The notes under the pieces were generated by a model. The model worked only from the letters and a program-made list of their open reading frames with translations, had not been told where the DNA came from and did no database searches. This document shows, in pieces, positions 8,404 through 63,214 of a DNA stretch of 64,000 nucleotides. How positions within the stretch are numbered: position 1 is the stretch's first letter; the number at the start of each line of letters is the position of its first letter. Source of the stretch: Thraustochytrium sp. TN22 (Eukaryota > Sar > Bigyra > Thraustochytrida > Thraustochytriidae). The stretch lies in the NCBI GenBank assembly GCA_013306675.1, contig JABLUY010000061.1, positions 62,001 through 126,000 of the forward strand, given 5' to 3'. Both the position numbers and the translations under genes were made by a program.

Positions 8404-9141
8404 GACGCCTCGGGTAGCGCGAGGCCGCGTTTGCGCCAGGCCGGCCCTGCCTCTCGCCTCGCCGCGCCCTCTCCGCGCGGCTCGCAGCCAGCTAGCTGCT
8501 GCAGCCACCGCAGCGCCTCTTCGGCGCCCGCGGCTCGCGTTCCGCCGCCGCCTTGCGCCCCTCCCGGCGCGCGCTCCGAGCCTGAGCCTGCCGCCCGCGC
8601 CCTGCCAGCCTCGCGCTCCAAACGGATACGCGGGCTGACATGCAGGACACGAGCGACAGGAAAATGCACGTGTGCGCCGCGCGGACGGCCCGGGGACCCC
8701 AAGGGGACCCCTGCGCCGCGAAGGAGTGCGAAAGAATGGTGGATATCCTCGGCGTCACTCGAAGTCAGCTTCAAGTTCAAGTTCAGGTTCAAGTTCAAAT
8801 GCGCGGCCGTCGTGCGCGGCGCGGCAGGCCGAGCCCGGGCGCGCAGAGCGCGAACGAAGCGGCGGCGACGGCGCGCGGCGGAGTCGAGCCGAGGGCGCCG
8901 CGCCGTGCCGTGCCGTGCGAGCGAGCCCCTGCTGCTAGCGGCGGGCCAGGCCGGCGCGGCGACGCGCCGCTGCGCGCTTGTCTGAACTGCGCTGCGCCGA
9001 CAACGAGGAGGCGAGCCTGAGCCTGAGCGCGGGCGGCTCCAAGCGAGGCGTGCACAAGAGCGCAACAGGAGGTCGTCCGGGGTCGAGGGCGGCAGCCAGC
9101 CAGGCAGGCGCGGGGAGACGTGGTGTTTGGAGATCGGGAGC
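8404..9141. promoter_or_regulatory. Divergent promoter region with (TTCAAG)n
   Basis: The shared upstream region of the leftward IQ/WW gene and the rightward GH5 gene. It contains a tandem TTCAAG hexamer array at about 8770-8799, a motif that also appears singly in other intergenic regions of the window. A promoter role is inferred only from position. Confidence 0.4.
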
Positions 9142-12100
9142 ATGGGGTTCGAGGAGGCGGACGAGTACCACCCGCCGACGGCGGCTGCGCAGCGCTCACC
9201 GCTGCACAGGAACCCGACGCTGGTGCACCTGCGCACGGAGGACATGGAGGCGGAGGCGGGCGCGGAGGAACCTGTGGGCGAGCGTTGGATGTCCGGTCTC
9301 AAGAGCGGCGTGGAGTCCACGCGCAGCGTGGTGCTGGACGAGCCTGGGTATTACGTGCTGCGACTTGCGGCCATGGCAGGCAAGCTCCAGACAGAGGCGG
9401 AGGCCAAGGACCAGACGGGCGCCGCGCAGCACTCGGACGAATCGGCAGGCGAGGCGAGCGGTGGTGAGCGAGCGCCGCTCGAGCAGGTGGCGCGCAGCCT
9501 GTCGACGCCCAAAATGCGCACGTCCAAACGCGCGCTTCTGCGCGCCAAAGTGGCCTCCATCCGCGGCGGCGGCAGCTCCAAGCGCAAGGTGAACGTCGAC
9601 GTGCGCGTGCGCGACGTGCACCACCTGGCGGTAATGGTCCTGAGCTCGTCCGAGTCGGTGGAGCCAAGTTTAGACGCCTATAGCACGCTCCTTGAGCAGG
9701 AGGCCAAGGCGCCCCGGCCGGGCGCTGAGTCGCGGCGCGCGCGGAGCTCATCCGCCGACTTTGGTCGCACCTCAAGCGGCGTCGGCACGAGCCCCGGAAC
9801 GCCCCTCACGCGCAGCACGCGGCCCACTTCGATGCGCAAGTCCATGTCGCCGCGCAACGCGAACAAGGACGCGCGCGCAGCACTGGAGCTGCGGCCCGAC
9901 GCGGGCGCCGCCGCCGTCGGCACCTCCGCTTTCTTCCTTGACCCGAGTAATGTGCCCGCAGTGCTGGAGATCTCCATGAAGGCGTCCGGCTCGCACGTCC
10001 TCGTGGGCGAGCTTTGCATCTCGTACAAGGGTTCCGTCATGGATGCGGCGGCCGAGCGCCTGCGCAGTGGCTCGCACGACTTCGTCTCAACTAGCGCGGC
10101 GGGGTTCGCGCGTGAGGTCGAGCAGATGATGCTGCCAGGCGAGACCGTCGAGGCGCCGTCAGGGGAGGGGCTGAGCGTGGAGCCGCCCCTGCCACCAGCG
10201 CCAGGCTTCACCCCCTTCGGGCCGGGCACTTTGGACAGGGACGCACCGCCGCGGCCGCAGTCGGCGCGAGGGCGCACGCATTCCCGCTTCAGCATGGATG
10301 ACATCATTCTGCGGCCTTCGGACCCGGGCCTGGACATGAGCGACGCGCAGTCCGAGGGGCACGGCGAGAAGGCCGACAGCCTCGACCTTGCGGAGCGCGT
10401 GCGGCCCACGCTGGCGCCGTTGCCCGGCGAGGTGACGATCGCGGCGGCCTGTGCCGAACCTGGGGAGACGCCAAGTCCGCCAACCGCGGACCGCGCACCG
10501 CCCACCAACCGCCACCGGCGCGCCATGTCGCTCTTCGCACGCTACTCGGACATGTCCTCCTCGCGCACTGTGGGTGCCGAGGACGGCGACGAGGATGACG
10601 ACGAAGGCGATAGCAGCGGTCGCGAGGATGAGGCCCAGGGCGGTGGCCTGCTGCGGCACGCCAGCTCCAAGGCGACCCAAGACGAGGAGGAGGAGGACGA
10701 CGACGACGACGACGACGAGCCGTACGCTGGTGCGCCCGACAGCGGCCTTCAAGGTCCGGATGGCGACGAGCAGGCGGCAAGCTTCGATCGCCCTCGCGCC
10801 GAGCTGGCCACCAGCACCAAGACCCTCATCGATGGGGACGAGGAGGACGAAGAGGACGGCGTGAGCCGCGACGCCTCTGGCGCCGGTGGCAAGGCAGCTG
10901 CGGCTGCCGCCGCGGCTTCCGTCGCCGGCGCCGTCGTGGCCACCGGCGGCGAGGCGAGGGGAGACGCAGATGGGCCGACGGAGCACGTGCACTTCGCGTC
11001 AAAGCGTGCGAGCTCGCAGCGCCGCGTGCGGTTCCGCGGGCAGCAAGTGGCCATGGAGTCGGCGCACCTGAACGCGATGACGGCACCAGAAATGAGTCCG
11101 GAGGGCCTCGCACAAGCGCCCTTTGAAAGGCTGCTTGCGCGCATTGTGTCTTCGAAAGAGACCTCGGCGACGCGTGGCGAGGAGTTCAAGACCTTGAACC
11201 GCATGATGGAGGCGGAGCTCCCCATCAAGCTCAAGCCGCTAGTAACGCAGGGGCGGTGGTTCTACGAATTCAGTGGGCCGAACGAGCCTTTGGGCCGTGC
11301 CGTCCTGCTGCGCGGTGTGAACCTGTCGGGCAACGTGAAGCTGCCGAGCTCGCCCGACAGCCGCACGCACCTCCGGTTTGACTGGGGCAAGCTCAAGGAC
11401 CCGGCGGTGGCGGCGGAGCTCTCGTTTGTTGGGCGGCCGTTCCCGTTGGAGGAGGCGCACGAGCACTTCTCGCGGCTGCGGCGGTGGGGCTTCAACTGCT
11501 TCCGGTTCCTGGTGACCTGGGAGGCAATCGAGCACGCCGGGCCGGGCCAGTACGACGAGGAGTACCTCGACTACGTGGAGTTGATCGTGCGTATCGCGGG
11601 CACGTACGGCTTCTACGTGTTTATCGACCCGCACCAGGACGTTTGGAGCCGCATGACGGGCGGATCGGGCGCGCCGGCGTGGACACTGACTGCCGCCGGC
11701 CTGGACCTGAGCAACCTTGAGGCCAGCGAGGCGGCGTTCACGCACAACAGCGCGGCGGACCCGGCCAAGTTCCAGCGCATGTCATGGCCGCAGAACTACC
11801 AGCGGTTCGCGGCCGCGCACATGTTCACGCTGTTCTGGGGCGGCAACGACTTTGCGCCAGACTTCGCGGTCGACGGAGGCATCCCTGTGCAGGAGTACCT
11901 CCAACGGCACTTCATTGACGCGATGCTGCAGGTCGTGGGCCGCGTGCGCGAGATGCCGCACGTGATTGGCTTCGACAGCTTCAACGAGCCGTCCCCGGGC
12001 TTTATTGGGCGACGCCTGGACGACTTGCCGGACGTGATCATCCCGCCCGGCCCGGTGTTCCGGCCGATCGACGCCATGGTGTGCGCGGCGGGCTACACGA

Positions 12101-13299
12101 CGAGCGTGGGGCGCGCGAACTCGATCGGGCTGCTGACGGGACGGTACAAGGCGAACCGCACGCGTACCTCGGTGTGGCGCGAGGGCGTTGAGGATGTGTG
12201 GCGACGCCACGGCGTGTGGGACATCGAGACCTCGACAAATGAGCAGGGCCAGACGATGGAGACTGCGCGCATCCTGCGCGGAGACCACTTTTGCTCGTTC
12301 CCGCGCGGGCGCTCGAGCGGTGGCGGGCGGAGCGTGGAGAGCAAGGTAGAGTTCTTCCGTGACTACCTGCGGCCCTTCATGGTGCTGTACATCAGCCGCA
12401 TCCGAGCGCTCATGCCGCGCGCCATCCTCTTCGCGGAGGGCGACGGTTTTGGCGAGAAGGAATTCATCTGGGACCACGGCGACCCGCGCGGCGTGGTGAA
12501 CGCCTCGCACTGGTACGACGGGTACACGCTATTCACGGCGAACTTCAATCCGCGGTTCTCCGTGGACGTCTCGAGCAAGCTGCCGGTGTTCGGCGCGCAG
12601 CGCATCTTCAACATGCACGTGCGCGACCTGAGCGCGATCGCGCAGCTGCCTCGCGCGCTGGACGGCGCCGCCATGGAGATGCCAACGTTGATTGGCGAGT
12701 TCGGCCTCCCGTTTAACATGAACAACAAGTACGGCTTCAAGACGGGAGACTTCCGCATGCACGAACGCGCCATGTCCATGTACTACGACGTCATGGACAC
12801 CTTGCAGCTGCACTCGACGCAGTGGAATTACTGCGCCGACAACAGCAACGAGTGGGGTGACAACTGGAACCTGGAGGACCTTTCGCTGTTCTCCCCGGAC
12901 CAGCAGCGACGCACCGCGCACCAGGACATCAACTCGGGTGGCCGCGGCGTGCGCGGGTTCTCACGCCCCTTTGCGCCGCTGGTCTGCGGCGTGCCCACGC
13001 TGACGGCCTTCAACCGCAAGACGCGCGCCTTTGAGCACTCGTATGAGCCGAATCCGCGCAACTTCGAGTACGGAAACCTGGACCACGCCACGGAGATCTT
13101 CGTACCAGACATCCAGTACCTTGCCAAGAAGACCGCTTCGGTCGTCCAGTTCGACATCATGGTGGAGGGCGGCAAGTTCAAGAAGCGCCAGCTGCCGGGA
13201 CGCCACATCCTCTACATTTGGGCCGACAAGCAGGCCATGGAGGCCACGAACCATGTCAACTGCGTCACTGTTCGGGTCCTCTTCCCGGTCAGTGTCTGA
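9142..13299 (+). CDS. GH5 glucosylceramidase/sterylglucosidase-like protein with long N-terminal region
   Basis: 1,385 residues from the first ATG at 9142. The C-terminal half (about residues 690-1385) is a glycoside hydrolase family 5 barrel of the endoglycoceramidase-related type: GVNLSGNVKLP, RWGFNCFRFLVTWEAIEH, IDPHQDVWSR, and the acid/base glutamate in FDSFNEPSPGF (E949). The nucleophile candidate is E1186 in LIGEFGLPF, and the end carries the beta-sandwich part usual in fungal EGCrP-type enzymes. Members of that group remove glucose from glucosylceramide or steryl glucoside. The first roughly 680 residues are low complexity, with acidic, serine and alanine runs. They include one ordered-looking stretch (AFFLDPSNVPAVLEISM...LVGELCISYKG) that might be a C2-like fold. 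Such a head is much longer than in the fungal enzymes. No signal peptide is visible, so a cytosolic or membrane-surface enzyme is likely. Confidence 0.8.
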   Translation: MGFEEADEYHPPTAAAQRSPLHRNPTLVHLRTEDMEAEAGAEEPVGERWMSGLKSGVESTRSVVLDEPGYYVLRLAAMAGKLQTEAEAKDQTGAAQHSDESAGEASGGERAPLEQVARSLSTPKMRTSKRALLRAKVASIRGGGSSKRKVNVDVRVRDVHHLAVMVLSSSESVEPSLDAYSTLLEQEAKAPRPGAESRRARSSSADFGRTSSGVGTSPGTPLTRSTRPTSMRKSMSPRNANKDARAALELRPDAGAAAVGTSAFFLDPSNVPAVLEISMKASGSHVLVGELCISYKGSVMDAAAERLRSGSHDFVSTSAAGFAREVEQMMLPGETVEAPSGEGLSVEPPLPPAPGFTPFGPGTLDRDAPPRPQSARGRTHSRFSMDDIILRPSDPGLDMSDAQSEGHGEKADSLDLAERVRPTLAPLPGEVTIAAACAEPGETPSPPTADRAPPTNRHRRAMSLFARYSDMSSSRTVGAEDGDEDDDEGDSSGREDEAQGGGLLRHASSKATQDEEEEDDDDDDDEPYAGAPDSGLQGPDGDEQAASFDRPRAELATSTKTLIDGDEEDEEDGVSRDASGAGGKAAAAAAAASVAGAVVATGGEARGDADGPTEHVHFASKRASSQRRVRFRGQQVAMESAHLNAMTAPEMSPEGLAQAPFERLLARIVSSKETSATRGEEFKTLNRMMEAELPIKLKPLVTQGRWFYEFSGPNEPLGRAVLLRGVNLSGNVKLPSSPDSRTHLRFDWGKLKDPAVAAELSFVGRPFPLEEAHEHFSRLRRWGFNCFRFLVTWEAIEHAGPGQYDEEYLDYVELIVRIAGTYGFYVFIDPHQDVWSRMTGGSGAPAWTLTAAGLDLSNLEASEAAFTHNSAADPAKFQRMSWPQNYQRFAAAHMFTLFWGGNDFAPDFAVDGGIPVQEYLQRHFIDAMLQVVGRVREMPHVIGFDSFNEPSPGFIGRRLDDLPDVIIPPGPVFRPIDAMVCAAGYTTSVGRANSIGLLTGRYKANRTRTSVWREGVEDVWRRHGVWDIETSTNEQGQTMETARILRGDHFCSFPRGRSSGGGRSVESKVEFFRDYLRPFMVLYISRIRALMPRAILFAEGDGFGEKEFIWDHGDPRGVVNASHWYDGYTLFTANFNPRFSVDVSSKLPVFGAQRIFNMHVRDLSAIAQLPRALDGAAMEMPTLIGEFGLPFNMNNKYGFKTGDFRMHERAMSMYYDVMDTLQLHSTQWNYCADNSNEWGDNWNLEDLSLFSPDQQRRTAHQDINSGGRGVRGFSRPFAPLVCGVPTLTAFNRKTRAFEHSYEPNPRNFEYGNLDHATEIFVPDIQYLAKKTASVVQFDIMVEGGKFKKRQLPGRHILYIWADKQAMEATNHVNCVTVRVLFPVSV

Positions 13300-29119: not shown

Positions 29120-32100
29120 TCATTGCAGCGGGAGAGGCAAGCCTGCCATCTCCGTCGCATCCAACATCTCCCCCTCGACCTCTTCCAGGGAGAACTGGTT
29201 GTGCTGGTTGTGCTGATGCTGAAGGTGCTGCTGATGTTGCTGATGCATGACTTCCTCGGTCGGTGCAGCCAGGTCTGTCCCGGCCTCGCTGATGCGGCGG
29301 CGTCGCTCGCGGATGCTGCGCTGAATGACAAGCGTGGCGCTCAGCTGGCGGCGCCAGGCATGGAAATTCTTGCGGGCAAGAAGACACCGCGTCGCGGCCT
29401 GGACCTGGATCACGTCCTGCCGCGCCTGCCGGTACTCCTTGCGCGCCAAGAAACCCTTGCCGACGGCCTGCACCTTGGTCACCTTTTCTTCAAGGTCGGC
29501 GTCCAAGATGCGCTGCTGCTTCGCCTTCTCCTTGCGAAAGCCCTTGGTCTCCGTCTGCAGCTTGCGTGAAGTCATGACACTGCGCCGCAAGAGCCAGCGC
29601 CGGACATTCGTCTGGATGACGCGCACCTCCGCGTCGAGCTCCGATCGTTCGTCCTCGTTCAAGCTCGACAGCACCGCAACCAGGTCCGGCTCGTTCTCCG
29701 AGACAATCATCTTCACCTTGGCGTCGTGGTCCCCCCCGTTCATATCCGATGCCCCGGCGCTCGCGCCCACGGAGGCGCTCTCCCCGCCGCCGCCGCCGCT
29801 GACGCCGCCGCTCGTGGAAGCTTGACCGCCCGGGCTCGGGTACGTGAGGGGGTCGTCGCGCGCGGCGGCCTCCCAGCCGACCTGCTCGACGCCAGCCAGG
29901 GAGCTTGTGCGCGAGTGGCCCGGCGTGGACAGAGCCGCACCGGGGCTCCCCGCCAGACCCACGCTGTCCGTCGCGCCGGCATCCGACTCCCGCATACCCA
30001 GCGAGAGCGCGCAGCGCTCCTTGAGACTCATAGACGCCAGCGCCTTGCGCAACATCTTGTGCTGCATATCGCCTAGCGACTCCTTCGCCCGCCCGTCCAG
30101 CTCCATCGCGCCGTCCAAGCTGACGGACTCCAGCGCAGCCGCGCCGCCCGCCGCGGCAGCCGCCCGCGCAGCTGCACCACGGGGCGACCGCGGCGGCGCG
30201 CTGGTCGCGCCTGGAGACGTGTTCGCCGCCGCCGCGGACGCCGCAAGATCGGCAACGACCGCCGCACCAGAAGCGGCAGCAGGCGTGACCTGGGAGGCCT
30301 GCGAGCAGGACTCGGAGCTCGACGAGATGGACGTGTGCGTGGACTGAAAGCTGTCATAGGCCGTACCCTTGGCGACGCGCGGCGCCTGCAAGAGCTCCAG
30401 AAGCTCGACAGACCCATGCATCTCCGCCAGCTCTGCCGGCGTCTGACCCGAGGCATCTAGAAGCGCCGGGTCGCCGCCGGCCGCCAGCAGCTCGCCAGCC
30501 ATCTCAAACTCGGCCGCCTCTGCCGCCAGGTGCAGCGGCGTGTCGCCGCCCGAGGTCGCCTTGTTCGGGTCCGCGCCGTGCTTGAGCAGGAGCGAGACCA
30601 GCTGCACGTGGTTAAAGGCCACTGCGTAGTGCAGCAGGTTGAAACCGCTCTCGTCCAGCGCGTCCAGCTCGCCCTGCAGGTCGCGCTCCTCTCGGCACAT
30701 GTCCAGCAGGACCTTGACCACGCGCTGCAGGAGCGACTCCGAGAGCTCCGTAAGCTCGTCGTCGTCCAGCTGGTCCATGTCGCGGTCGTCCAGGTCCTCG
30801 CCCTCACCGCCCACCGACGACCCGGGTACCGGTGACGGTAGTCGCCGGCTGCGCTTGCGCTTTAGAAGCCGGCCCGCGCCGGCCTGCTGTGAGGTAGGCG
30901 TCCCGCCTGGGCTTGGCCCGCCCAGAGACCGCAGACTGCCGATGGAGGACCCATCCGAGCTGCGCGGCCGCGTTCTCGCGACGTCCGTCACCACAGACGG
31001 AGGCGCTGCACGCAGCATCGACTGGCCCACAGCCGTCGGCGTGCGCACCTGCGGAGCCCGCAATGCCGCCGGAATGCCGACAAAGTCCACCATGGCGCCG
31101 CCGTTGCACAGGCTTGCTCCAAGGCAGATGCTCGTCCCATTGACCACTACGTTGAATGGCACGCGCGCACCGGGACTCATGCGCGGAGTCGAGCACCGGA
31201 CTACGCCGCTCGAGAGCATCTCGCCCAAGACCACGACCGAAGACCCGAAAACGACCTCCACGCGCTTCACCTCCACGTCCAGCATCGACTTGGAGAAGGC
31301 CTCGCCACCGGCCTGCGACAGCGCGATCAGCATGCGCGTGCCGCCCTCGGCGCGCGCCATGTCCGGCGCGAAGTCCGCCACCTCCAGGCAGCCCAGGTCC
31401 AGCAAGGCCACGAGCTCCGGCGACTTGGGAAAGAAGCCGGTGTCCAGCGCGTCCGAGCTCGCGCTCATGCTGCCGCCGCCCTCCGGCGACTTGGGTACCT
31501 GCTTTGCGTGCACGTCCGGCCCATCCGTGGCCAGGGGCGCCAGCGGCGTCGTGCTTGGGGCGGGCAACGCCTGAGATGCTGGTGCTGCTGCTCTCGATGC
31601 CGCATCTGATGCTGCTGACTGTGCCGGGGGCGCAGGTACAGCAGGCGGCGACGAGGTGCCGAGCCGCATATCGTCCATGTCTACGTCGTGGAGGCCGTGC
31701 AGAAAGTCGTGCATAGCAGCTTCATCGGCGTGCGTCTGCGCCAAGCTCTCGGCCTCTGACAGTGGCTGGAAGCCCGTGGCATCACCAAGCGCGCCCACCG
31801 GCCCGTGGGGGTCTTCCGCGGTTTCGTCTTCCGTCTTAATGCCCTTGGAGCCGGCGACGCCATCGTCATAGTGCGGCGGCAGGGAGACCAAGGACGTGGG
31901 CGAAGAAGGCGATTCGCTCTTGACACTGAGCGAACCCAGGCCGGCCGCCCGTGGCGCGCCCGGTGCGCCCTTGCCTCCTGGCCTGGACTCCGACGAGGAC
32001 GAGGAGGACGAGGACGGCGCCCTCCCGTTTGCAGCAGCGGCATGGCCGCTACTGCCTGAGGCGCTGCACACGGAGCCTGAGCCTGAGCCTGAGCTCGCGC

Positions 32101-32980
32101 TGGAGCCCGGGCGTGAGGCGTCAAGGCCGGCAGCCACAGGCATGACGCCCTCCTCAGACTCGAGCTCCATGGTGCAACCAATGCAGATGCAGTCTGCCGG
32201 GTGCGACTCATGCGCTGGGACGGCGCTGTCCCAATAATGCACGAGGATGAGGTTGTTACGGTTCTTGAGGTCCCAGTAGCTGCGCCGGTGCAGCGAGACC
32301 CGCTCCACCGAGTGCACGTGGCACGCGTAGACACGCTCCTCGTGAGCATACTTGAGCTTGACGTGGTCCTCACGCACGGCCGCGGCGTTGCCCTTCTTCT
32401 TGACGTACTCGTAGCCGTCCACGCGGAACTGTGGCGTGCGGGAGCGGTCGTAGAGAAAGAGCGACCCGCTGGGCGGCCGCATCTGCACCGTGTGCAGCGG
32501 CTGGATGTCGCCCTTGGCGCCCATCTCCAGCAGAAACAGCACGGCGCGAGCGTCCAGATACCTGCGCTTGGCCGAGTCGGCGATGAACTTGAGTTCCTCC
32601 TTGGAGGTGACAATACTGCTGCCTGGGATGACGAGCCTACCGTCCGGACCGACGCGGCCCTTGGCCGGCGACCCGCGCCGAGCGCCGCCCGGCCCGCGGT
32701 GGCCGCTGTTGCGGCTCGCGCGCTTCGTGCCGCGGCCAGCCGCACCGCCGGCCCCCGCGGCGCGCGACATATTGGCGAGCGCCATCTGCTGGTGCGCGTG
32801 CATCATCTGTTGCTGCGCTGGGTGCATCGACATTGGGTACGGCATCATCGGGTACCCGTGCGGGCCCGGGTGGTGCATCTGCTGCGCCATGTACGCCGGG
32901 TGCCCGGGCGTCATGGGCGGCACGCCGTGCGCGCCGTACATGGTCGGGTACAGCCCGTGCGAGAGGTGCGAAGGGTGCAT
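29120..32980 (-). CDS. CAMTA-type calmodulin-binding transcription activator
   Basis: 1,286 residues from the ATG at 32980. Domains in order: a Met/His/Pro-rich head (1-75); a CG-1 DNA-binding domain at about 128-252 (RPPSGSLFLYDRS, VKKKGNAAAVREDHVKLK, RRSYWDL, ILVHYWD); a long Ser/Pro-rich linker; an IPT/TIG immunoglobulin-like domain at about 525-625; ankyrin repeats at about 777-865 (FNLLHYAVAFNHVQLVSLLL, GDTPLHLAAEAAE); and IQ motifs at about 1110-1260 (RVIQTNVRRWLLRR, VTKVQAVGKGFLARKEY, VIQVQAATRCLLARK, TLVIQRSIRERRRR). This is the complete CAMTA layout of plants and animals. CAMTAs bind CGCG-type elements and respond to calcium through calmodulin at the IQ region. No intron is needed to read the protein. 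Confidence 0.93.
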   Translation of the reverse strand: MHPSHLSHGLYPTMYGAHGVPPMTPGHPAYMAQQMHHPGPHGYPMMPYPMSMHPAQQQMMHAHQQMALANMSRAAGAGGAAGRGTKRASRNSGHRGPGGARRGSPAKGRVGPDGRLVIPGSSIVTSKEELKFIADSAKRRYLDARAVLFLLEMGAKGDIQPLHTVQMRPPSGSLFLYDRSRTPQFRVDGYEYVKKKGNAAAVREDHVKLKYAHEERVYACHVHSVERVSLHRRSYWDLKNRNNLILVHYWDSAVPAHESHPADCICIGCTMELESEEGVMPVAAGLDASRPGSSASSGSGSGSVCSASGSSGHAAAANGRAPSSSSSSSSESRPGGKGAPGAPRAAGLGSLSVKSESPSSPTSLVSLPPHYDDGVAGSKGIKTEDETAEDPHGPVGALGDATGFQPLSEAESLAQTHADEAAMHDFLHGLHDVDMDDMRLGTSSPPAVPAPPAQSAASDAASRAAAPASQALPAPSTTPLAPLATDGPDVHAKQVPKSPEGGGSMSASSDALDTGFFPKSPELVALLDLGCLEVADFAPDMARAEGGTRMLIALSQAGGEAFSKSMLDVEVKRVEVVFGSSVVVLGEMLSSGVVRCSTPRMSPGARVPFNVVVNGTSICLGASLCNGGAMVDFVGIPAALRAPQVRTPTAVGQSMLRAAPPSVVTDVARTRPRSSDGSSIGSLRSLGGPSPGGTPTSQQAGAGRLLKRKRSRRLPSPVPGSSVGGEGEDLDDRDMDQLDDDELTELSESLLQRVVKVLLDMCREERDLQGELDALDESGFNLLHYAVAFNHVQLVSLLLKHGADPNKATSGGDTPLHLAAEAAEFEMAGELLAAGGDPALLDASGQTPAELAEMHGSVELLELLQAPRVAKGTAYDSFQSTHTSISSSSESCSQASQVTPAAASGAAVVADLAASAAAANTSPGATSAPPRSPRGAAARAAAAAGGAAALESVSLDGAMELDGRAKESLGDMQHKMLRKALASMSLKERCALSLGMRESDAGATDSVGLAGSPGAALSTPGHSRTSSLAGVEQVGWEAAARDDPLTYPSPGGQASTSGGVSGGGGGESASVGASAGASDMNGGDHDAKVKMIVSENEPDLVAVLSSLNEDERSELDAEVRVIQTNVRRWLLRRSVMTSRKLQTETKGFRKEKAKQQRILDADLEEKVTKVQAVGKGFLARKEYRQARQDVIQVQAATRCLLARKNFHAWRRQLSATLVIQRSIRERRRRISEAGTDLAAPTEEVMHQQHQQHLQHQHNQHNQFSLEEVEGEMLDATEMAGLPLPLQ

Positions 32981-43933: not shown

Positions 43934-43995
43934 CAAAGAGTCGCTCGAGAGTCAGCGGAGCGTGCAAAGAGTCGCTCAGAGGTCAGCGGAGCGTG
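43934..43995. repeat. 31-bp tandem duplication across the myosin stop codon
   Basis: 43934-43964 and 43965-43995 are copies differing at only a few central bases (both begin CAAAGAGTCGCTC and end CAGCGGAGCGTG). The right copy contains the last codons and stop of the leftward myosin gene; the left copy lies in its 3' UTR. Confidence 0.9.
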
Positions 43996-46900
43996 GCGAG
44001 TTCCTGGGGCGGCGGATTGCGGCGCACTCGGCGGCGCTGCTGGCCTTGCTGCTGGCGCTGGAGCTGTTGCTGCTGCTCGAAGGCAGCCCTGTTCGACTCG
44101 AACTGGTCCATCTCGTCCATGAAGAACTTGCCCACGCCGCCCACGGTGCGCAGGATGCTCTCACCGGACGAGACAATGCCCTTGAGAATGAAGGAACCCG
44201 GCAGCGAGCCTGGGAGTTCCTCCTCCGCATCGAGGACGCCGCGCTGCGCTCCGTTCGCCTCGCGCGGCGCGTTCTCGCTGAGGTCGCGCGGCTGCAGCGA
44301 GCGCGGGGCGGCAGAGGCCGTCGAGGCCGTGAGCGGCGCAACCGAGGCGCGGAGCTGCGCGGCGAGCGCGGCATTCTCGTCCTTGAGCCGCGCATTCTCG
44401 CGGGAAAGACGCAACACAGCGGCCTTGAACTTGCGCGCCTTGGCTGCGGGGACCAGGACGTCGTCGCTCTCGCCCGCGGGCTCCGGCGCGGGCGAGGTTG
44501 AAGGGGGTGCATCAGGGGGCGCCACGGCGCGTGCAGCCCGTTCGGCGTCCAGCTCGGCCTGAAGCGCGGCGAGGCGCGCCTCCAGGGCCTGCACCTGGTT
44601 CTTCAGACCGCGCACAGACTGCGCCTCGCGATGCGCCGCCAGGCGCACAAGGAAGCGGCGCCGTGCCTGGCACGCACGAACACAGGCTTGCGTCCTGGCC
44701 ACGACGCGACGCACGTGCGCGTAGGTCTTGGCGCACGACGCGGTACGCGCCCAGGACTGCAGGCGCAACGCGGCGGCACGGCGACGGGCCCGCTCCGCCA
44801 GCCAGTTGCGCGCCTGGCGCTGCGTGAGGATTAGCGCAGCGCGCCAAACAAGGTACTCGCGGCGCTGCACCCGCTGGCGCCACACAGCCTGCAGCTTAAG
44901 CACGGCCGTGCGAAGGCGCCGGTAGCCGGCGCGCACGAGGTAGCCTCGAGCGACGTGCTGCAGGCGCGCCGCGGCCTTGAGCGCCCGGACGCGCTCGCGC
45001 GCCAGGCGCGCGCGCGCTGCGGCCTGCAGACGCGTGGCTTGCTCGTGCAACAGGACTTGGTGCCGCTCCCGAAGGGTGCGTAGAATGCCCTGCGCGAAGA
45101 AGGTGCGCGTCTTACCAACGAAGAAGGCGTCGTCGGTGGCGGCGAGGTCAGCCAGGAAGTGGCGAGTAACCTGGTCCGCGGCCTCTCGCGCGGCCTCGTC
45201 CTCGCCGCCCACACCACGGGCCGGAGGGCGCGGCGCAAGACCTGCGCCGAAGCGCGCCACAAGCGTCGAGTGCGGCAGGCGGTCCGCGTAGCCGGCGCGC
45301 GAGATGCGCAGGGCCTCGATCACGCCGCTGCAGCGGAGCTGTGAGCGAACCATCTCATGGTCGAAAAGGTCGGAGCGCATGTCCGCGTTGGGCTTGATGC
45401 ACCGCACAAAGTGCGTGTCGGTGGCGCCGATGGCGCCCATGAGGTCGTCGAGCTGTGCGCGGAACTTGTGCGTGAGCGTGCGCGAGCCGGAGGTTGCGCC
45501 GTCGCGCTTGTCGCGCATGAGGCTGCAGAGCAGGCCGGCGCAACCGATCGCGTCCAGGCCCGGGCCCGCGTCCGAGCCAGCATCGGCGTCGCAAACGACC
45601 AGCGCGCGCAGATCCTCGCTGAGGTGGTCGAGGTTCTTCTCGAGGAAGCTCTGCGCGTGATATGGCACAGGCCCGGCGAAGTGCTGCACGGAGAAAACGA
45701 GCTTGTCGAAGCGGTCAGCGCGCAGCAGCTTCCCGCCCTGGCGTGCAGTCGTGAGCTTGGACACGAGCGCGGCCTCGGAACCGTTCGGACGTACGGACTC
45801 CTCGTGCAAGAGCGCGAACACGCTGGCGGCCTTGCCCTGAATCAGATCAATCACGGCTGCGCCGTCGTTGTGCTCGATGTGCGTCCACGGCACGCCCTCG
45901 CGCTCGTACTCGAGCTGGACCTGGCGCAGCACGCAGTCGTTGAAAGTCTGCTGCAGGCGCTCGTTGGTGAAGTTGATGCAGAGCTGCTCGAGCGAGTTGT
46001 GGGCGAAACACTCGAAGCCGAAGATGTCCAGGATGGCAATGCTCGCCGGCGCTGTTGCCGCCTCGTGCGGCTTGGCGTCGGCCCCGGGGCCCGCGCGCAT
46101 GCTCTCGTTGACGCGCGCCACGAGCCAGTCGAAGAGCGCGGCGTAGACCGCCTTGGCTAGGGCCGGCGCGCTGGCCTGCGCCTGCTCCAGGGGCAGCGGC
46201 TTGGCGATGGTCTCACCGCCAATGGTCATCTGGCGGTGCGTCAGCGCGCGCTCGATGCGGGCCGCGGCCTCATTCTTGCCCTCGTCCTGCTCCCCGTTCT
46301 CGTCGTCGTCGGCGGCGGTGCCCATGGCTAGCGCCCGCAGGAGGCGCGGTACGACGAGCTCGCGGGAGGCGGGCGTGAGTCGCACGCCGACGTCCTGGTC
46401 CGCCTCGAGCTCGAGCTCCAGCAGCATCAGGACGACGGCCAGCACGCCGAGAATGCCCCGGAGCTGTGGGCCATCGCCAAGGCCCAGAGCGCGCAGCGCC
46501 GCCAAGGTGCGCGCGCCATGGGCCCGGTCCTGAGCAGCCTGCGTATTGTTGGCGAGCGAGTGCAGGGCGAGGTCACCTAAGGCTTCCTCGGCGAAGGCAG
46601 CATCGAGTCCGCCGTTGGCGAGCTGGTACAGCACGTGGAAGGAGCGCTCGCCCGGGCCCTGGTGCGTGAGACGACTCTTCTCGAGCAAATAGGTGGACAG
46701 CGCCGCGCCCTGCAGGCAGTGGCGGTCCTTGTCAAAGTGGAGCGCGATGAACTTGCCGAAGCGCGAGCTGTTGTCGTTGCGCGCGGTCTTGGCGTTGCCA
46801 AAGGCCTCGAGCAGCGGGTTAGACTGCAGCACACGTTCCACGGTGCCAGCACGCTCGGCCTCGGCGCCCGCGCTGCTGGCGCTCACACGGTCGCTCACGT

Positions 46901-47255
46901 GGGCCAGGTGGTCCATGAGGATCTTTGTGGACTCCGTCTTGCCGGCGCCTGACTCGCCGCTCACCAGGATGCTCTGGGAGCGGCTGCCCTCGCGCAGCTG
47001 CAGGTAGCTCGCGCACGACGTCCTGTACAGGTGTGGGCTCAGCGTCGCCGGGTCGCGTGCCTCGACGACGAGCTTGTCGGCGAAGTCGGCCTGGCACGAG
47101 CCCGAGTACAGGTGCTCATGCCTGAAGAAGGGGTTCACGGCGATGCACATGCCCACGGCCCACGTGTACGGCTTGCCATCCTCGAACCGCGCCTGCAGGT
47201 TGCCCAGCACCGCCTCCTCGTCCAACTGCGGCAGCTCGTTCAGGTCCTCCGCCAT
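43983..47255 (-). CDS. Unconventional myosin heavy chain with IQ motifs
   Basis: 1,090 residues from the ATG at 47255, which sits in GCCATGG; an in-frame ATG at 47411 would add 52 residues without similarity. The motor head is complete: P-loop GESGAGKT at about 100-107, switch I NDNSSRFGKF, switch II DIFGFECFAHNSLEQLCINF, and the actin-binding/HCM-loop block HFVRCIKPNADMRSD. It begins directly at LPQLDEEAVLGNLQARF, so there is no N-terminal SH3-like subdomain. After the converter come six IQ-like motifs (for example AARLQHVARGYLVRA, VLKLQAVWRQRVQRR), a short coiled coil (ALEARLAALQAELDAE), a Ser/Pro linker, another helix, and a Gln-rich C-terminus. There is no MyTH4, FERM or DIL domain. Class assignment needs a tree. 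Confidence 0.92.
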   Translation of the reverse strand: MAEDLNELPQLDEEAVLGNLQARFEDGKPYTWAVGMCIAVNPFFRHEHLYSGSCQADFADKLVVEARDPATLSPHLYRTSCASYLQLREGSRSQSILVSGESGAGKTESTKILMDHLAHVSDRVSASSAGAEAERAGTVERVLQSNPLLEAFGNAKTARNDNSSRFGKFIALHFDKDRHCLQGAALSTYLLEKSRLTHQGPGERSFHVLYQLANGGLDAAFAEEALGDLALHSLANNTQAAQDRAHGARTLAALRALGLGDGPQLRGILGVLAVVLMLLELELEADQDVGVRLTPASRELVVPRLLRALAMGTAADDDENGEQDEGKNEAAARIERALTHRQMTIGGETIAKPLPLEQAQASAPALAKAVYAALFDWLVARVNESMRAGPGADAKPHEAATAPASIAILDIFGFECFAHNSLEQLCINFTNERLQQTFNDCVLRQVQLEYEREGVPWTHIEHNDGAAVIDLIQGKAASVFALLHEESVRPNGSEAALVSKLTTARQGGKLLRADRFDKLVFSVQHFAGPVPYHAQSFLEKNLDHLSEDLRALVVCDADAGSDAGPGLDAIGCAGLLCSLMRDKRDGATSGSRTLTHKFRAQLDDLMGAIGATDTHFVRCIKPNADMRSDLFDHEMVRSQLRCSGVIEALRISRAGYADRLPHSTLVARFGAGLAPRPPARGVGGEDEAAREAADQVTRHFLADLAATDDAFFVGKTRTFFAQGILRTLRERHQVLLHEQATRLQAAARARLARERVRALKAAARLQHVARGYLVRAGYRRLRTAVLKLQAVWRQRVQRREYLVWRAALILTQRQARNWLAERARRRAAALRLQSWARTASCAKTYAHVRRVVARTQACVRACQARRRFLVRLAAHREAQSVRGLKNQVQALEARLAALQAELDAERAARAVAPPDAPPSTSPAPEPAGESDDVLVPAAKARKFKAAVLRLSRENARLKDENAALAAQLRASVAPLTASTASAAPRSLQPRDLSENAPREANGAQRGVLDAEEELPGSLPGSFILKGIVSSGESILRTVGGVGKFFMDEMDQFESNRAAFEQQQQLQRQQQGQQRRRVRRNPPPQELATLR

Positions 47256-48952
47256 GGCGCCGTGCGCTCGTTCTCTCGAGTCGAGTTGTGCGTCGAGTGT
47301 CGACCCGACTTCGGCCGAGCCGAGCCCAGCCGAGCCGCCGGTGCAAGCGTGTTTGCCTGCCCGCCTCGCAAACCTCGCGCCGACGTTGTGCGGCTCAGGC
47401 TGCGGAATCATCGGCGCAGCCGTTGCGCGTCGTCAAGCACGCGCGTGCCCATGCCAGACAGAGTGTGCGACTCGTCTCGTCCCGCGGAGCTCGACCGGGG
47501 ACTCTTGCGCGCGCCCTGGGGCGGCAGAGGGACTCGAGCGGGCGCGGGGAGCAGCGTTTCACGTGCCTTGGTACGGCTCGAGACAAAAGCCAGGCCGCAA
47601 TTCGCGAGCTTGCTTGAGCTTGCGGCGGATCAGCGAGCCCAGCGAGAGCGAGCAGGCGAGTGAGAAGGAGGCTCGACAACTTGAAGACACGACGGATTCC
47701 TCCTTCACGTGCAAGTTGTGCCTTGTACTTCTTTGGAATTTCGTTATCACAGCGACGCCTTGCCCTTTTCGCCGCAGCCAGATGTTTTCGTAGCTTTTGC
47801 GCGCACGCGATCAGGCGGTTTTCCCCTCGAGACGTCTCATCAAAGGCGACAAGACAAAGGGCTCTTGCAGACAGCACCTTGTGAACATTCCTCTGCTTGC
47901 TCTCTCAGGCTCAGGCTGTTCGACATGGCCGAGCGTCCCTTCAGGTTTCAGGCGGCTGCCCTGCACTGCACTGCACAGAGCTGAGCGCGCAGTGCCGGCA
48001 AGAACTTGGCAAAGTCGCTCGTGACGCCTCATGACAGCGACGCTGCGACAGCGACAGCGTGAGCGACAGCGTGTAATTCACTTTCCGGTCTGTCCCCACT
48101 GACGCAGCTCATCCCCCGAATCCCCACTGGGCGCTCAGCTTCCCACCGCCCCCTCGAGCGGCACATCGAAGCGCGAGCTGCGGGATCCCCCTGGTGGTCA
48201 GAAAATCTTCCCCGCAGCCGCGCCGGCCTGCAGGGGAAGAGCGCCGAGACCCGCATGCCTTCTCCCCCTCGCGCGAAAAGATTCTCGCAGAGGCCCCGGG
48301 GGCAGGGGCGCGAGGGAGCGCGCCTCTGGGGCGGGCCGGCGAGGCGGCCGCGCGGCACAGAGCCGCATCCAAGACCTCCCTCCTTTCGCTCCGCCAAGTC
48401 CAGGTACGTCTCGGGCGATTGCGCGCGCGCGCGCGCGCGCGCGCGCGGGGGCGCACGGCGGCCGCCGCCTCTGCGCGCGGCCTGCCACCGCCGCCGCCGC
48501 CGCCCCCCGCGGCGCGCGCGAGGACGAGCGCGGCCAGCGGGATGGCTGGATGGCTGAAAGCGCGCAGGGCCGATGAGCTTATTACCGGCCACGCTTTGGC
48601 GCCGCTGTGCGGCGCGCGCGCCGGGGCTGCGCGCGGGAAGCTGCGCGCGCCGGGGCCAGCTGGCGGCGCGCGGCGCGCCGCCGCCGCCGCCACCCGCCGC
48701 CACCCGCCCCGTCGGCGCTAGAGCGCGTCGGCGGCGGCGTGTGCGGGGGCGCTTCATGCGGCGGAGCCGACTGGCGCCACGCCACGGCTTGGCACGGCTC
48801 GGCTCGGCACGCTGCTTGATAGACGGAAGGCGCGAGAGACGGAGGTTCGGCTGCGCCGGACAAGGGCAGGAGACTGACAGCGCAAGCTTGGCGCGTGGCA
48901 CGTAGACAGCAGGTACTTGGTCGGCCAGCTCCACCTCTCCCACACAGGCAAG
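47256..48952. promoter_or_regulatory. Divergent region upstream of myosin and V-ATPase c
   Basis: 1.7 kb without a convincing gene. Contains a (CG)n run of about 14 units at 48420-48448 (Z-DNA-prone) and tandem GCGACAGC words at 48030-48070. GTACGTC at 48403 could be the donor of a 5'-UTR intron of the V-ATPase c gene, though I cannot fix the acceptor. TTGATAGACGG near 48816 precedes the start by about 135 bases. Confidence 0.4.
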
Positions 48953-57640: not shown

Positions 57641-57944
57641 CTCGCGGTATTGGTCCTGCCTGACGCGGCGCGCAGCACGACTTGGAGTTGGCGAGGCGCA
57701 GCACAGTGCGACAACACCGCCACCACCCACACCACCTGCACTACCACGGTAGTAGTAGAAAGCGACTCGGATAACCCGGACTTGACTGCGAGGTTGAAGA
57801 AGACGAAGAAGACGAAGATGACGATGACGTGACTGACGTTTGTTGTTACCTCTTGACGTCACATCTTGGCAAAATGCAAAAAGGCAGAGATGGCAAAATC
57901 GGTTGGATCAGAGAGGACTTCAAAAACCTCGGCGCGGTCACAGC
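57641..57944. other. Short intergenic region
   Basis: Between the 3' end of TYW1 and the start of the LRR gene. A GAAGAAGACGAAGA-type repeat lies near 57797-57823. No gene. Confidence 0.45.
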
Positions 57945-60900
57945 TCACGCGGCGGCGCGGCGCTTGGCGCGCGCCTTGGAGGGCGGCAGGCCCACGGGCG
58001 GGCGCTCCGAGGCAGTGGTCGACATGGAGACGGCGTCCGCGTTGCTGCGCCGCTCCTTGCGGAAGCGAACCTCGACCGGGTCGAAGCCCTCCTCGGGCGC
58101 GCCCCAGACGGCCCACTCGGGTGTATCAGCCAGGTAGTCGCGAGAGGTAAAGGTGGCGGTGCCGCCCGAGTCCTTGTAGGCTTGCGCCAGCTCGTGGAAG
58201 CGATCGTAATCGATCCAGGTGCGCCAGGTCTTGCCATCCTCCGCCAAATAGGTGTCGGTGCGTGCCAGCAGCGTGCAGCACGAATGCACGTGCTCCGAGG
58301 CGGTGCCGTAGGCGCCGTTGGTGCGCTCGCAAATGGCCTCGGCAAACTTGCGCACCTCGTGATGCCAAGGCACGTTCTCAATGGTCAGGTTGGAGGCGTC
58401 CGACTTGCCGCAGTACGTGACGGACTTGATCTCGATCAGGTCCGGCTGGCCGAGCTCGATAAGGCGAGCGTAGCCCTCGAGCTCCTCCTCCATCATGTTC
58501 CACTGCTTGACCAGCGTCAGACGGTACGTGGTGCGTTGGCCCTTGTCGCGCAGCGCCTCAAGGCTGCCCACGAAGCGCTCCCAGAAGTCCTTGAAGAGCG
58601 GGCGATCCACCTCGCGCAGCGCGTCCTTGCTTGCCGCGTCCACGCTCACGTAGAGCTGGGTCACGGGCTGCAGGTCGCGGATCGCATCCGGGAACTGTGC
58701 ATTCGTCACCAAAAACGTCGAGATGCGCCGCGCGTGCAGCTCGTCCACAAGCTCGTTGATGCGCGGGTACATGATGGGCTCGCCCACCAGCGAGAGAGCG
58801 CAGTGACGCACGTTGAAGGCCTCCTCAAGGCGCTCCGGCTTGACGCCCGGCACGCCCTTCATCTGCTTGATCATGCCGCGGTGCAGATCCACGGCCTGCT
58901 CCACAATTGCGCCCGGCTCATCCTCCTTCCACCGCCACTCGCGGCCCACCGGGTTCTTGTGATGCCGCCAGCAGTTGTGCACCACTACACCGTTCGCCAC
59001 GAAGCTGCCCTCGCGGCTCTCAGGGAGCGGCACCGTCAGGTCGAAGACGCGCCGCGGCCCCGCCGGCCGCACCGCGAGCACCTCCAGCGCAAGCGTTGGC
59101 CACCCGGCCGCCTCGTCGCGCTCCGCCTCCTCGAGAAACGCGTCAAGGCCCAGGAGGTCGCGCACGAGGCGCGCTGTGGCGCTCGCGTCCGTGCGGGGCG
59201 TCCACGCCGCGAGCGCCGGATGCAGGTGGCCATCGCGCGCCGCGAGAGCCTCCTTGGCCTGCGCCAGTGCCGCGTCGGCATCCGCAGCGACATCCAACTC
59301 GGCCTCGGCCTCGGCCTCGGCCTTGGCGGCGGCGAGGCACGCCCGCAGCGCCGCCTCCTGGGCCCGCACGAGCGAGAGCGCCCGCTCCAGCGTCGCGCCA
59401 GCTGCCAGCCGCAGCTGGGCCGCGCGACGGTGGCGCAGGCCGACGGACTCCGCCAGAGCGCGCGGCGCCGGCCGAGCCGGCCGCTGCACGCCGAGACGCT
59501 CCATCAGCGCCTGGACTTCCGGCAGGCACGCGGAGCTCAGGTCAATGATGCCGCCGAGCTCGGCGTCGACGTGGGCGCGCTGGCCGAGGTAGGCGCCAAC
59601 AAATTCGCGGAGCACGGGCGCCGGCGCACCTTCGACGAAGCCGGGCACCTGGGAGGCCCCGGCGCCGCACGCGGACAGGGCCGCGGCAACGGGCGCTGGC
59701 ATGCGCAGGCACCAGCGGCCGTCACGCGTGCGCCGGGCGACGCAGCGGGCTTCGGCAAAAGGCGCGGTCGCGGCCAGTAGCGCCTCCACGTCGCCGCGCA
59801 GCGTGGCCACGTCGGCGGCGGCGTCCAGGACCAGGTCCGCGTCGCGGACCTCGGCCTGCTGCGCGCAGAGCACACCTGCGACGCGCGCAAAGGCCAGCGC
59901 GAAGGCCGACGCTGCGCCGCCGTCCAGGCGCAGAGCGGGCTCGCCTAGGCCGTCTGCGCGCGGCAGCGCGAAGGTCCAGGTCAAAGAGGCCGCGTCCGGA
60001 GCGTTCAAGGTGCTGCCGCAGAAGTCGACCGTAGCCTCAACCTGTGCGCCAGGCGCGAGCTTGCCGGCCGGGACCCATGCAGCCGCCTCCGTGGGCGAGG
60101 CGGACACGCGGATGCGGTGGTCTGGCGTGCAGACGAGCGTGCGGCCGTCTACGAGGACAAGCTCCACGCAGTCCTTCGTACCGCTGTCCGTGAAGGCGGT
60201 GAGCTGCTGCGCACTGAGGCGCTCCACGTCGCCGGCGTCGAGCGCCAGCACGGAGCCGGCCGACACGCCGGCGAGCGGAGCGAGCTGCTCAATGGGCAGG
60301 GCAACGCCGGAGGCGAGGGCAACGAGCGTGCCCTCGGCAATGCAGAAGACGCACTTGTTCGCACACGCCAGGCTCGGCGTGGCCTCCATGCACTGGTACG
60401 AGGTGATGCCGTAGAAGGTGTGCTTGTAGCAGCCGCCGCGGCCTCGCAGCTGGTGCTTGGTCCAGCGGCACAGCTTGACGGCCGAGTGCGTGCCAATGAT
60501 CTTGTACCCCTCCTTGGTGAGCGCCGCACGCTGCGAGGTGGTCACCATCTCGGGCCGCTCGGCGCCGGGCTCCGTCGGGCCGCTGCTCGTGCCCACCACG
60601 ATCATGTCTTCCATGTCGTCCAGCATCATCTCGTTCATGCGGTCCTCCTGCTCTTCCAGGGCCGAAATGGCGGGTGCCAGTTCGGAAGGTGCCTCGTTGG
60701 CCTGCTGCTTCGCCGTTGCCCCGCTGAGCTGTTGCTGCTGCTGCTGCTGCTGCTTCTGCTGCGGGGCGCCGCGGCCGGCAACAGCCTGCCGCGCCGGCAG
60801 CGGCACGACCTCGTCGCGCTCGATGGCCGCGCGCACTCGGCCGCCCAAGTTCTCAATCTTGGCGCTCGCGTCCGCATCGTCCACCAGGATGGGCAAGCAC

Positions 60901-61278
60901 AGGCGTCGTGCGCCCAGCTTGCCCACCGTCTCGTCCAGCCGCCAGCCGGTACGGCAGAAGAGACCCTTGCCGTACGCGCGGCTGCCTAGCGCCACCACCG
61001 CAAAGCGAAGGTTGGCCAGAAAGCGCGACTTGTCCACACGAAAGTCCAGCACCATGTCCTCCAGCCAGGCCACGAGCGCCTCGCCGCTGCTGGGAGGCGC
61101 GCCATCCGTCCAGGTCGGCATCACGAAGATCACCACGCGTTCGTCCTCCAGCTCGTCCGCAAAGCTGTAGTCCGCGGCGTCCACCACGCGCGCACCCTCC
61201 ACGCCGCCCGCCACGATGTCCGCAATTTTACTCGCGGTCCCGGTCGTCGTTGCGTACACGACCGTCACCGGAGTCGGG

Positions 61279-61323
<45 letters not shown>

Positions 61324-61601
61324 AGCTGCAGGCTGAGCTGCTCGGCGTCCACCGCGAGGTCCTCCTCCAGGGCGCCATCCTCGTCAGCGCCGGCCTTGCT
61401 CCTCGCGTTGGCCAGCGCCGCGCGCAGCCCGCCGCGAAAGGGCCAGGTGCTGCGCACCACCTGCTTGGCGCGCTTGGCGAGCGCGCTCGCCGTGCCGGGC
61501 TCCACCAGGGTGCCCCAGGCCGCCGCCACCACGGCCAGCGTCGCCGCCGCCGCCAGCGACGCGATGGCCGCCTCGCGCCATCCCGCCGCCGCCGCCGCCA
61601 T
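57945..61601 (-). CDS. TYW1: tRNA wybutosine synthase TYW1 interrupted by an intein
   Basis: A single 1,218-codon frame with the ATG at 61601. Residues 11-33 form a membrane anchor, as in other eukaryotic TYW1. Two glutamine runs (about 95-107 and 283-291) flank a flavodoxin-type FMN domain (TVVYATTTGTASKIADIV onward). The radical-SAM half begins EGYKIIGTHSAVKLCRW and has the motif ACANKCVF (C413, C417). There the sequence switches to an intein (residues 420-876) and resumes at C877 with CWRHHKNPVGREWRWKEDEP. Without the intein the protein is 761 residues, normal for TYW1. TYW1 uses pyruvate, SAM and two iron-sulfur clusters to build the tricyclic base of tRNA-Phe at position 37. After the cluster, GEPIMYP, VTNAQFP and LYVSVDA are as expected. 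No intron is needed. Confidence 0.95.
58974..60344 (-). mobile_element. Intein in TYW1 with degenerate LAGLIDADG endonuclease
   Basis: 457 residues (TYW1 420-876) in frame. Block A is CIAEGTLVALASGVALPIEQ with the Cys1 nucleophile. Block B is LVCTPDHRI with Thr73 and His76. Block F is RRVFDLTVP, and block G is ANGVVVHN with the penultimate His and terminal Asn, followed by Cys+1 of the host. All residues needed for class 1 splicing are present. Between the splicing blocks the layout is that of a dodecapeptide (LAGLIDADG) endonuclease. FARVAGVLCAQQAEV (about 152-166) and FVGAYLGQRAHVD (about 248-260, then IIDLSSACLPEVQALMERLG) occupy the two motif positions, but each lacks the catalytic acid. 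So it probably splices but no longer homes. Base and codon use match the host, which suggests long residence. Confidence 0.93.
61282..61320. repeat. CAG/CTG tract encoding the first TYW1 glutamine run
   Basis: About 12-13 CTG units on the + strand with one CAG-to-CAA type interruption at the end. Confidence 0.9.
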
Positions 61602-62265: not shown

Positions 62266-63214
62266 ATGGGCCGCATCATCCGCGCGCAGCGCAAGGGCGC
62301 GTCGCCGATCTTTCGGGTACGTGGCGGGCGTGGTGGCGAGGCGAGGCGAGGCGTGGCGTGGCGTGGCGAGGGCATGATTGACGCGGAGGGCACGGCACGG
62401 CACGGCACGGCACGGCCGGCAAGGGCGCGGAGGGCGGCGAGGAGGACGCGCGCGGGGACGGGAGACTGACGGATGAGGTGGGCTTGATGATGCGCAGTCG
62501 CACACGCACACCCGCAAGGGCGCGGCGAAGCTCCGGGTGTTCGACTACAGCGAGCGCCATGGCTACGTCCGGGGCGTGGTGAAGGACATCATCCACGACC
62601 CGGGGCGTGGCGCGCCGCTGGCGGTCGTCCACTTCCGCAACCCGTACAAGTACAAGAAGGACAAGGAGCTCATGATCGCCACCGAGGGCACCTACGTCGG
62701 CCAGTTCATCTACACCGGCGCCAAGGCCAAGATGGACGTGGGCAACATCCTGCCCCTGAGCGCCATGCCGGAGGGTACCGTTGTGTGCTGCCTCGAGCAG
62801 ACCGCCGGTGACCGCGGCAAGATCGCCAAGGCCTCGGGCGAGTACTGCACCATCAAGGTGCACGACCACGACAACGGCAAGACCCAGGTCGCCCTTCCCT
62901 CGGGCAACAAGAAGACCGTGCCCTCGGCCTGCCGCGCCATGGTCGGCCTCGTCGCCGGCGGTGGCCGCATGGACAAGCCGCTGCTCAAGGCTGGCGCCGC
63001 CTTTTACAAGTACCGCGTGAAGCGTAACGAGTGGCCCAAGGTCCGTGGTGTTGCCATGAACCCCGTCGAGCACCCGCACGGTGGTGGTAACCACCAGCAC
63101 ATCGGCCACGCCTCCACGGTCAAGCGCGACGCGCCGGCCGGTAAGCGTGTCGGTCTCATCGCCGCTCGCCGCACCGGTCTGCACCGTGGCCGCACTGCTG
63201 CCAAGGACGAGTAA
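62266..63214 (+). CDS. RPL8: 60S ribosomal protein uL2 (L8), two exons
   Basis: Exons 62266-62316 and 62498-63214 join in phase 0 to give 255 residues. The 181-nt intron begins GTACGTGGC and ends GATGCGCAG. Exon 1 encodes [17 protein letters not shown]; exon 2 resumes [17 protein letters not shown], matching the uL2 family across the junction. uL2 sits at the peptidyl-transferase centre. The conserved loop [20 protein letters not shown] is present, including the histidine essential for peptide bond formation (GGGNHQHIG). Length is normal. The intron holds pentamer repeats. The start lies in GCAGGATGGG. Confidence 0.97.
62333..62416. repeat. Pentanucleotide repeats in the uL2 intron
   Basis: A (GGCGA/GGCGT)n run at 62333-62371 and a (CACGG)n run at 62391-62416, both inside the 181-nt intron. 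Confidence 0.9.

Follow-up and report, generated by a model that had tools for sequence, protein, structure and literature searches.

Introduction

The most common hosts of nuclear inteins are Prp8, VMA1, RNA polymerase subunits, ThrRS, GLT, CHS and eIF5B, as compiled in Table 1 of Green et al. 2018 (PMC5784728). TYW1 is absent from this table, which is headed 'most common' and is not exhaustive. Archaeal Taw1 and eukaryotic TYW1 share with the protein discussed here a radical-SAM domain with the motif CxxxCxxCW, and eukaryotic TYW1 is described as combining a flavodoxin with a radical-SAM domain (PMC9186531), which is also the layout of the protein discussed here. The motif CxxxCxxC of TYW1 binds a [4Fe-4S] cluster, and a second cluster is held by three other cysteines (PMC5352715).

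Here, we analyze the TYW1 gene encoded in a stretch of 64,000 nucleotides of Thraustochytrium sp. TN22 DNA, which is referred to as the window. Its sequence suggests that a segment of 457 residues in the middle of the protein belongs to the class 1 inteins, here encoded by a nuclear gene, and it is predicted to splice itself out of the precursor; we assign this reading a probability of roughly 0.93.

The TYW1 gene and its genomic context

The TYW1 open reading frame is located on the minus strand of the window (57945..61601) and encodes a precursor of 1218 amino acids. The insert, which corresponds to precursor residues 420-876, lies within this frame (58974..60344, minus strand; 1371 nt, 457 codons), and the frame contains no internal stop codon, as had been stated in a first-pass annotation made from the letters of the sequence. 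Flavodoxin_1 (1.4e-24), Wyosine_form (3.2e-21) and Radical_SAM (8.2e-12) of Pfam all match the precursor above their cut-offs, and the NCBIfam model TIGR03972 aligns with it in two stretches around the insert (285.2 bits; cut-off 317.95). Taw1 chains of the PDB also match the precursor as two stretches, one on each side of the insert.

The N-extein (residues 1-419; 60345..61601, minus strand) contains the flavodoxin domain at residues 114-248 and the conserved cysteines Cys378, Cys391 and Cys404, which are invariant in a three-sequence alignment with two Taw1 chains, and it ends shortly after Cys413 and Cys417, the first two cysteines of CxxxCxxC. The C-extein (residues 877-1218 and the stop codon; 57945..58973, minus strand) opens with Cys877 (58971-58973). 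Joined to each other and aligned with parts of two archaeal Taw1 chains (42% and 34% identity), the exteins run gaplessly through the junction, and the predicted spliced TYW1 has 761 amino acids. According to this alignment of the joined flanks, removal of the insert in frame restores a normal host protein, and the earlier claim that the two halves join exactly into a normal TYW1 therefore holds. The GC3 of the insert (0.869) is close to that of the exteins (0.895 and 0.886), which fits a long residence in this genome or a GC-rich source. The N-extein also carries two poly-Gln runs of 14 and 8 residues, located before (61281-61322, minus strand) and after (60729-60752, minus strand) the flavodoxin domain. 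Long open reading frames opposite TYW1, for instance one of 646 amino acids at 57840-59780, are treated as chance occurrences in GC-rich DNA.

The genome assembly comprises 37.9 Mb in 453 contigs, in which one copy of TYW1 was found; a genome search at E 0.01 revealed no second one. We refer to the gene as nuclear because of the size of this genome and because it neighbors a eukaryotic-type RPL8 (uL2) gene with a GT-AG intron: the start codon of RPL8 is located at 62266, followed by the intron at 62317-62497 (181 nt) and an exon that continues into the frame at 62537. Ordinary introns thus exist in this genome. The top-ranking PDB entry for RPL8, 11he, obtained its score through a duplicated stretch. 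TYW3 was also found (E 3.3e-48); it shares a single frame of at least 1442 amino acids with Kelch repeats, a methyltransferase domain of the TRM5/TYW2 type and, at the C-terminus, a Cupin_8 domain (L130:2-4327; G000:C66:251500-260500; minus strand). Plants possess a TYW3-Kelch-TYW2 fusion, and the addition of a cupin to it is of note. The presence of this gene leads us to expect the wybutosine pathway and hence a working TYW1. Other long frames in the window encode a protein of 1390 amino acids that combines a family 5 glycoside hydrolase domain with the C-terminal domain belonging to it (9127-13299, plus strand), a CAMTA-like protein of 1286 amino acids with CG-1, ankyrin and IQ regions (29120-32980, minus strand) and a myosin head (43983-47411, minus strand; 1142 amino acids). 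A conserved pattern of the small-subunit rRNA is not matched exactly anywhere in the assembly, from which the rDNA may be missing.

Motifs and profile similarities of the insert

The insert follows Phe419, starts with CIAEGT and is directly followed by Cys877, the Cys+1 residue. Its first residue, Cys420, is the Cys1 of block A (60342-60344, minus strand). The N-terminal splicing part (insert residues 1-105; 60030..60344, minus strand), which is supported by the start of the model TIGR01445 at Cys1 and by phmmer matches in the PDB, contains block B with the TxxH motif TPDH (insert residues 73-76; 60117-60128, minus strand). The C-terminal splicing part, which is recognized by TIGR01443 (insert residues 416-457; 58974..59099, minus strand), contains block F, VFDLTVP (insert residues 433-439; 59028-59048, minus strand), and block G, VVVHN, which is followed by cysteine (insert residues 453-457; 58974-58988, minus strand). 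All of the blocks named in the first-pass annotation, that is A, B, F and G with Cys1, TxxH, His-Asn and Cys+1, are present in the sequence.

The intein C-terminus model TIGR01443 exceeds its cut-off of 15.6 bits in the whole protein (23.3 bits), in the insert (19.7 bits) and in a junction fragment (27.2 bits). A search of the six-frame translated genome with this model up to E 10, in which the best candidates were scored, yielded a single match, namely this insert (27.5 bits, E 2.3e-4). The intein N-terminus model TIGR01445 begins exactly at Cys1, and its scores of 20.4 bits in the whole protein and 21.2 bits in the insert lie below the cut-off of 24.5; only in a junction fragment of 101 amino acids is the cut-off exceeded, with 25.6 bits. 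PF14890 (Intein_splicing) reaches 17.2 and 20.0 bits, below its cut-off of 35.8, which is a limit for scores and no biochemical property, and gives no matches genome-wide, this insert included; because the model misses even this insert, its result is no proof that the genome lacks further inteins. We also used a profile of 18 inteins, which consists of one annotated intein of a Caulobacter phage and 17 archaeal inteins from 29 loci; the 12 archaeal loci left out were 11 that were partial or overlapped a used one, and L099. This profile aligns from end to end with the insert (profile positions 1-380, insert residues 1-457) at 46.3 bits, compared to 1.0 bits for the best of 600 shuffles and 5.2 bits for the best of the 178 other open reading frames of at least 150 amino acids in the window. 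The best eight PDB matches of the insert, in which alanine makes up 23% of the residues, are entries of the MtuRecA intein (E 0.0011 to 0.015); the top phmmer match is 2imz (PI-MtuI; E 0.0011), and one non-intein chain is found among the matches at E 0.86. The similarity to inteins sought by profile searches was thus found, although the Pfam model remains below its cut-off, and with the TIGR01443 and 18-intein profile scores a nuclear intein, as originally suggested, is clearly the best reading of the segment.

The middle of the insert

The region between the two splicing parts shows a faint resemblance to homing endonucleases. In the profile alignment, insert residues 149 to 290, approximately, correspond to a possible, decayed LAGLIDADG endonuclease core (59475..59900, minus strand). 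The first LAGLIDADG position reads GVLCAQQ (59856-59876, minus strand) and the second AYLGQRA (59574-59594, minus strand), both without acidic residues; the two motifs with acidic residues that mark an active LAGLIDADG endonuclease are therefore lacking, and Pfam, up to E 10, detected no LAGLIDADG family. The endonuclease blocks C and E, which the first-pass annotation did not name, are present at best in this possible decayed form. The core is followed by an alanine-rich linker (insert residues about 300-415; 59100..59447, minus strand; 32% Ala), most of which has no counterpart in the intein profile. Scored alone alongside shuffled sequences, the middle (insert residues 106-415) takes first place among 1001 for two whole-intein profiles (5.5 and 3.7 bits) and second place among 10001 for a profile of the endonuclease core, where it reaches 6.5 bits and one of 10000 shuffles 9.6 bits. 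These alignments weakly support the view that the middle is a remnant of a LAGLIDADG homing endonuclease, which would no longer cut. If so, the intein is now likely inherited vertically.

Insertion site and predicted splicing

The insert directly precedes the third cysteine of CxxxCxxC, which consists of Cys413, Cys417 and, once the protein is spliced, Cys877. Judged from the alignments, Cys877 is both the Cys+1 residue of the intein and the third ligand of the radical-SAM cluster. In the precursor, it is Cys1 that is spaced like the third ligand, so that Cys413, Cys417 and Cys420 read CX3CX2C.

By analogy with established intein chemistry, we infer the following steps: a single precursor of 1218 residues would be translated, in which Cys420 carries out an N-S acyl shift on Phe419; the resulting thioester would be attacked by Cys877, Asn876 would cyclize with the help of His875, and an S-N shift would join Phe419 to Cys877. 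Splicing would thereby rebuild the sequence CANKCVFCWR, the [4Fe-4S] motif of the radical-SAM domain. As the splicing nucleophile Cys+1 is itself the third cluster ligand, the enzyme should not work unspliced, and its maturation should need protein splicing. The same dependence of activity on splicing is expected from the single TYW1 copy found and from the cluster motif being split in the precursor.

The intein might also serve TYW1 as a gate that responds to metal or redox conditions, an idea that we consider rather doubtful. It derives from Cys1, the nucleophile that would start splicing: in the precursor this residue occupies the third-ligand place, which Cys+1 would take over after splicing. 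If this idea is correct, zinc or iron-sulfur species bound to the precursor motif, or oxidation of the cysteines, could hold back splicing and thereby tie the modification of tRNA-Phe to the metal or redox state. The mycobacterial DnaB intein stops splicing when zinc occupies its initiating cysteine (PMC7360933), and metal control of splicing is directly testable in the TYW1 intein.

Alternative explanations

The alternative that survives best is an intein that splices poorly or not at all, that is, a degenerate segment within a TYW1 which lacks activity or which the organism can do without. The divergence of the sequence, with PF14890 below its cut-off, and the loss of the acidic residues of the putative endonuclease would agree with such a decay; however, Cys1, TxxH, His-Asn and Cys+1 are all retained, the host open reading frame is intact, only a single copy of TYW1 was detected and the TYW3/TYW2 gene is present as well, and we therefore regard this explanation as unlikely.

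Far less probable still is a spliceosomal intron that is open in frame by chance. Introns do occur in the genome, as illustrated by the 181-nt GT-AG intron of the neighboring RPL8 gene, and the length of the insert, 1371 nt, is a multiple of three. However, none of the five placements that would join the flanks exactly has GT-AG, GC-AG or AT-AC ends, the five pairs being CT-AA, TG-AC, GC-CT, CA-TG and AT-GC. Among 14 in-frame GT-AG pairs listed near the junctions, six keep both flanks but add residues inside the cluster motif, and the remaining in-frame pairs within the tested range destroy a flank. No splice-site pair thus gives the exact join, and the segment is open over 457 codons that carry intein motifs and profile similarity, which is hard to reconcile with an intron.

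Inteins, BIL domains and hedgehog-type domains all possess the Hint fold with a nucleophile as their first residue. Given this shared architecture and the modest similarity scores, a non-mobile autoprocessing domain of the BIL or hedgehog type, which cleaves rather than ligates, could be considered, but it is hardly credible for an insert that lies inside a conserved motif between flanks that join exactly, is followed by Cys+1 and matches intein models, the C-terminal one above its cut-off.

Relatives of the insert and of its insertion site

Searches of viral contigs and of plasmids yielded no relatives of the insert, TYW1 is likewise not found in the viral contigs, and the only match for a second copy in the genome (E 0.38) is to the alanine-rich part of the insert. 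Among phages, tblastn returned 12 records, none of which covers 80% of the insert. The annotation under the match names an intein in three of them and the terminase large subunit or DnaB helicase in four, and the remaining five lack annotation there or carry one that points neither to an intein nor to a usual host of inteins; the best record, a DNA repair protein (E 0.002), belongs to these five.

In archaeal Taw1, a loose motif test found CxxxCxxC uninterrupted in all 80 loci kept from 241 relatives, a sample that is biased since an uninterrupted motif is already a requirement of one of the two search patterns. In one archaeal phylum, Taw1 is matched in 275 of 294 genomes (263 above the cut-off), and for part of these the continuity of the motif is inferred from the score. 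Thirteen genomes had a best E value weaker than 1e-100; eight of them were left out and five were examined. Taw1 of G076 is intact with a short insertion elsewhere, the pieces in G033, G089 and G194 span the insertion site, and in G066 the protein is truncated by a contig end ahead of the site. A second phylum yielded matches in 149 of its 151 genomes, 145 of them above the cut-off, and the four weak ones were left out. No intein at this site was found among the archaeal Taw1 proteins that were judged.

An apparent bacterial parallel is provided by the NCBIfam model NF038136, which describes intein-containing radical-SAM proteins of the Rv2578c family and matches the precursor across both junctions. 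Precursor residues 412-497 align with model positions 68-148, at 26.4 bits when the whole protein is scored and at 24.5 bits for a fragment, and residues 863-879 match positions 321-337, a stretch of equal length, weakly (12.6 bits, E 0.044); read from the alignment ends, Cys877 falls at model position 335. With 26.4 bits compared to a cut-off of 700, the TYW1 protein is not a member of this family. Based on these matches, bacteria appear to use the same position of CxxxCxxC, that is, inteins of the Rv2578c family appear to share the insertion site, as read from alignment ends and at a score far below the family cut-off. This suggests that the codons of CxxxCxxC are a recurrent intein site. 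If the NF038136 inteins share the position and also start with cysteine, the arrangement of Cys1 at the place of the third ligand would be recurrent as well.

The proposal of the first-pass annotation that the insertion site may be undescribed holds for eukaryotes: no report of a TYW1 intein was found in the open-licence literature. It is qualified by the bacterial NF038136 family, in which the equivalent position is apparently used. Where this literature names both intein and TYW1, the two words occur in unconnected parts of the text, and some publications that touch on both inteins and radical SAM place their inteins in terminase, PhoH and ribonucleotide reductase rather than in TYW1-like radical-SAM enzymes. 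The words radical, SAM and tRNA are all absent from PMC5874633, and no open-licence publication was found that names both intein and Rv2578c.

Comparison with known systems

As far as these searches reach, the host gene seems to be new for eukaryotic inteins, and the mechanism is a known one. A tRNA-modification enzyme would thereby be added to the short list of nuclear intein hosts. The nuclear inteins in Table 1 of PMC5784728 likewise reside in nuclear genes at conserved sites. With class 1 inteins that start with Cys1, such as the MtuRecA intein (2imz) and the archaeal inteins, the TYW1 insert shares the block A cysteine, the TxxH motif, the terminal His-Asn and an alignment to the intein profile from end to end; it differs from them in its host, a nuclear TYW1, in its middle of approximately 300 residues without a recognizable active endonuclease, and in its alanine content of nearly a quarter. 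The 80 archaeal Taw1 loci kept here all carry an uninterrupted motif according to the loose test, whereas in Thraustochytrium sp. TN22 the putative intein lies inside it. An apparent parallel is the Rv2578c family, whose radical-SAM proteins also contain inteins, apparently at the same position of CxxxCxxC; however, these are other enzymes, and their modelled intein spans about 259 positions by the same coordinates, compared to the 457 residues of the insert in TYW1.
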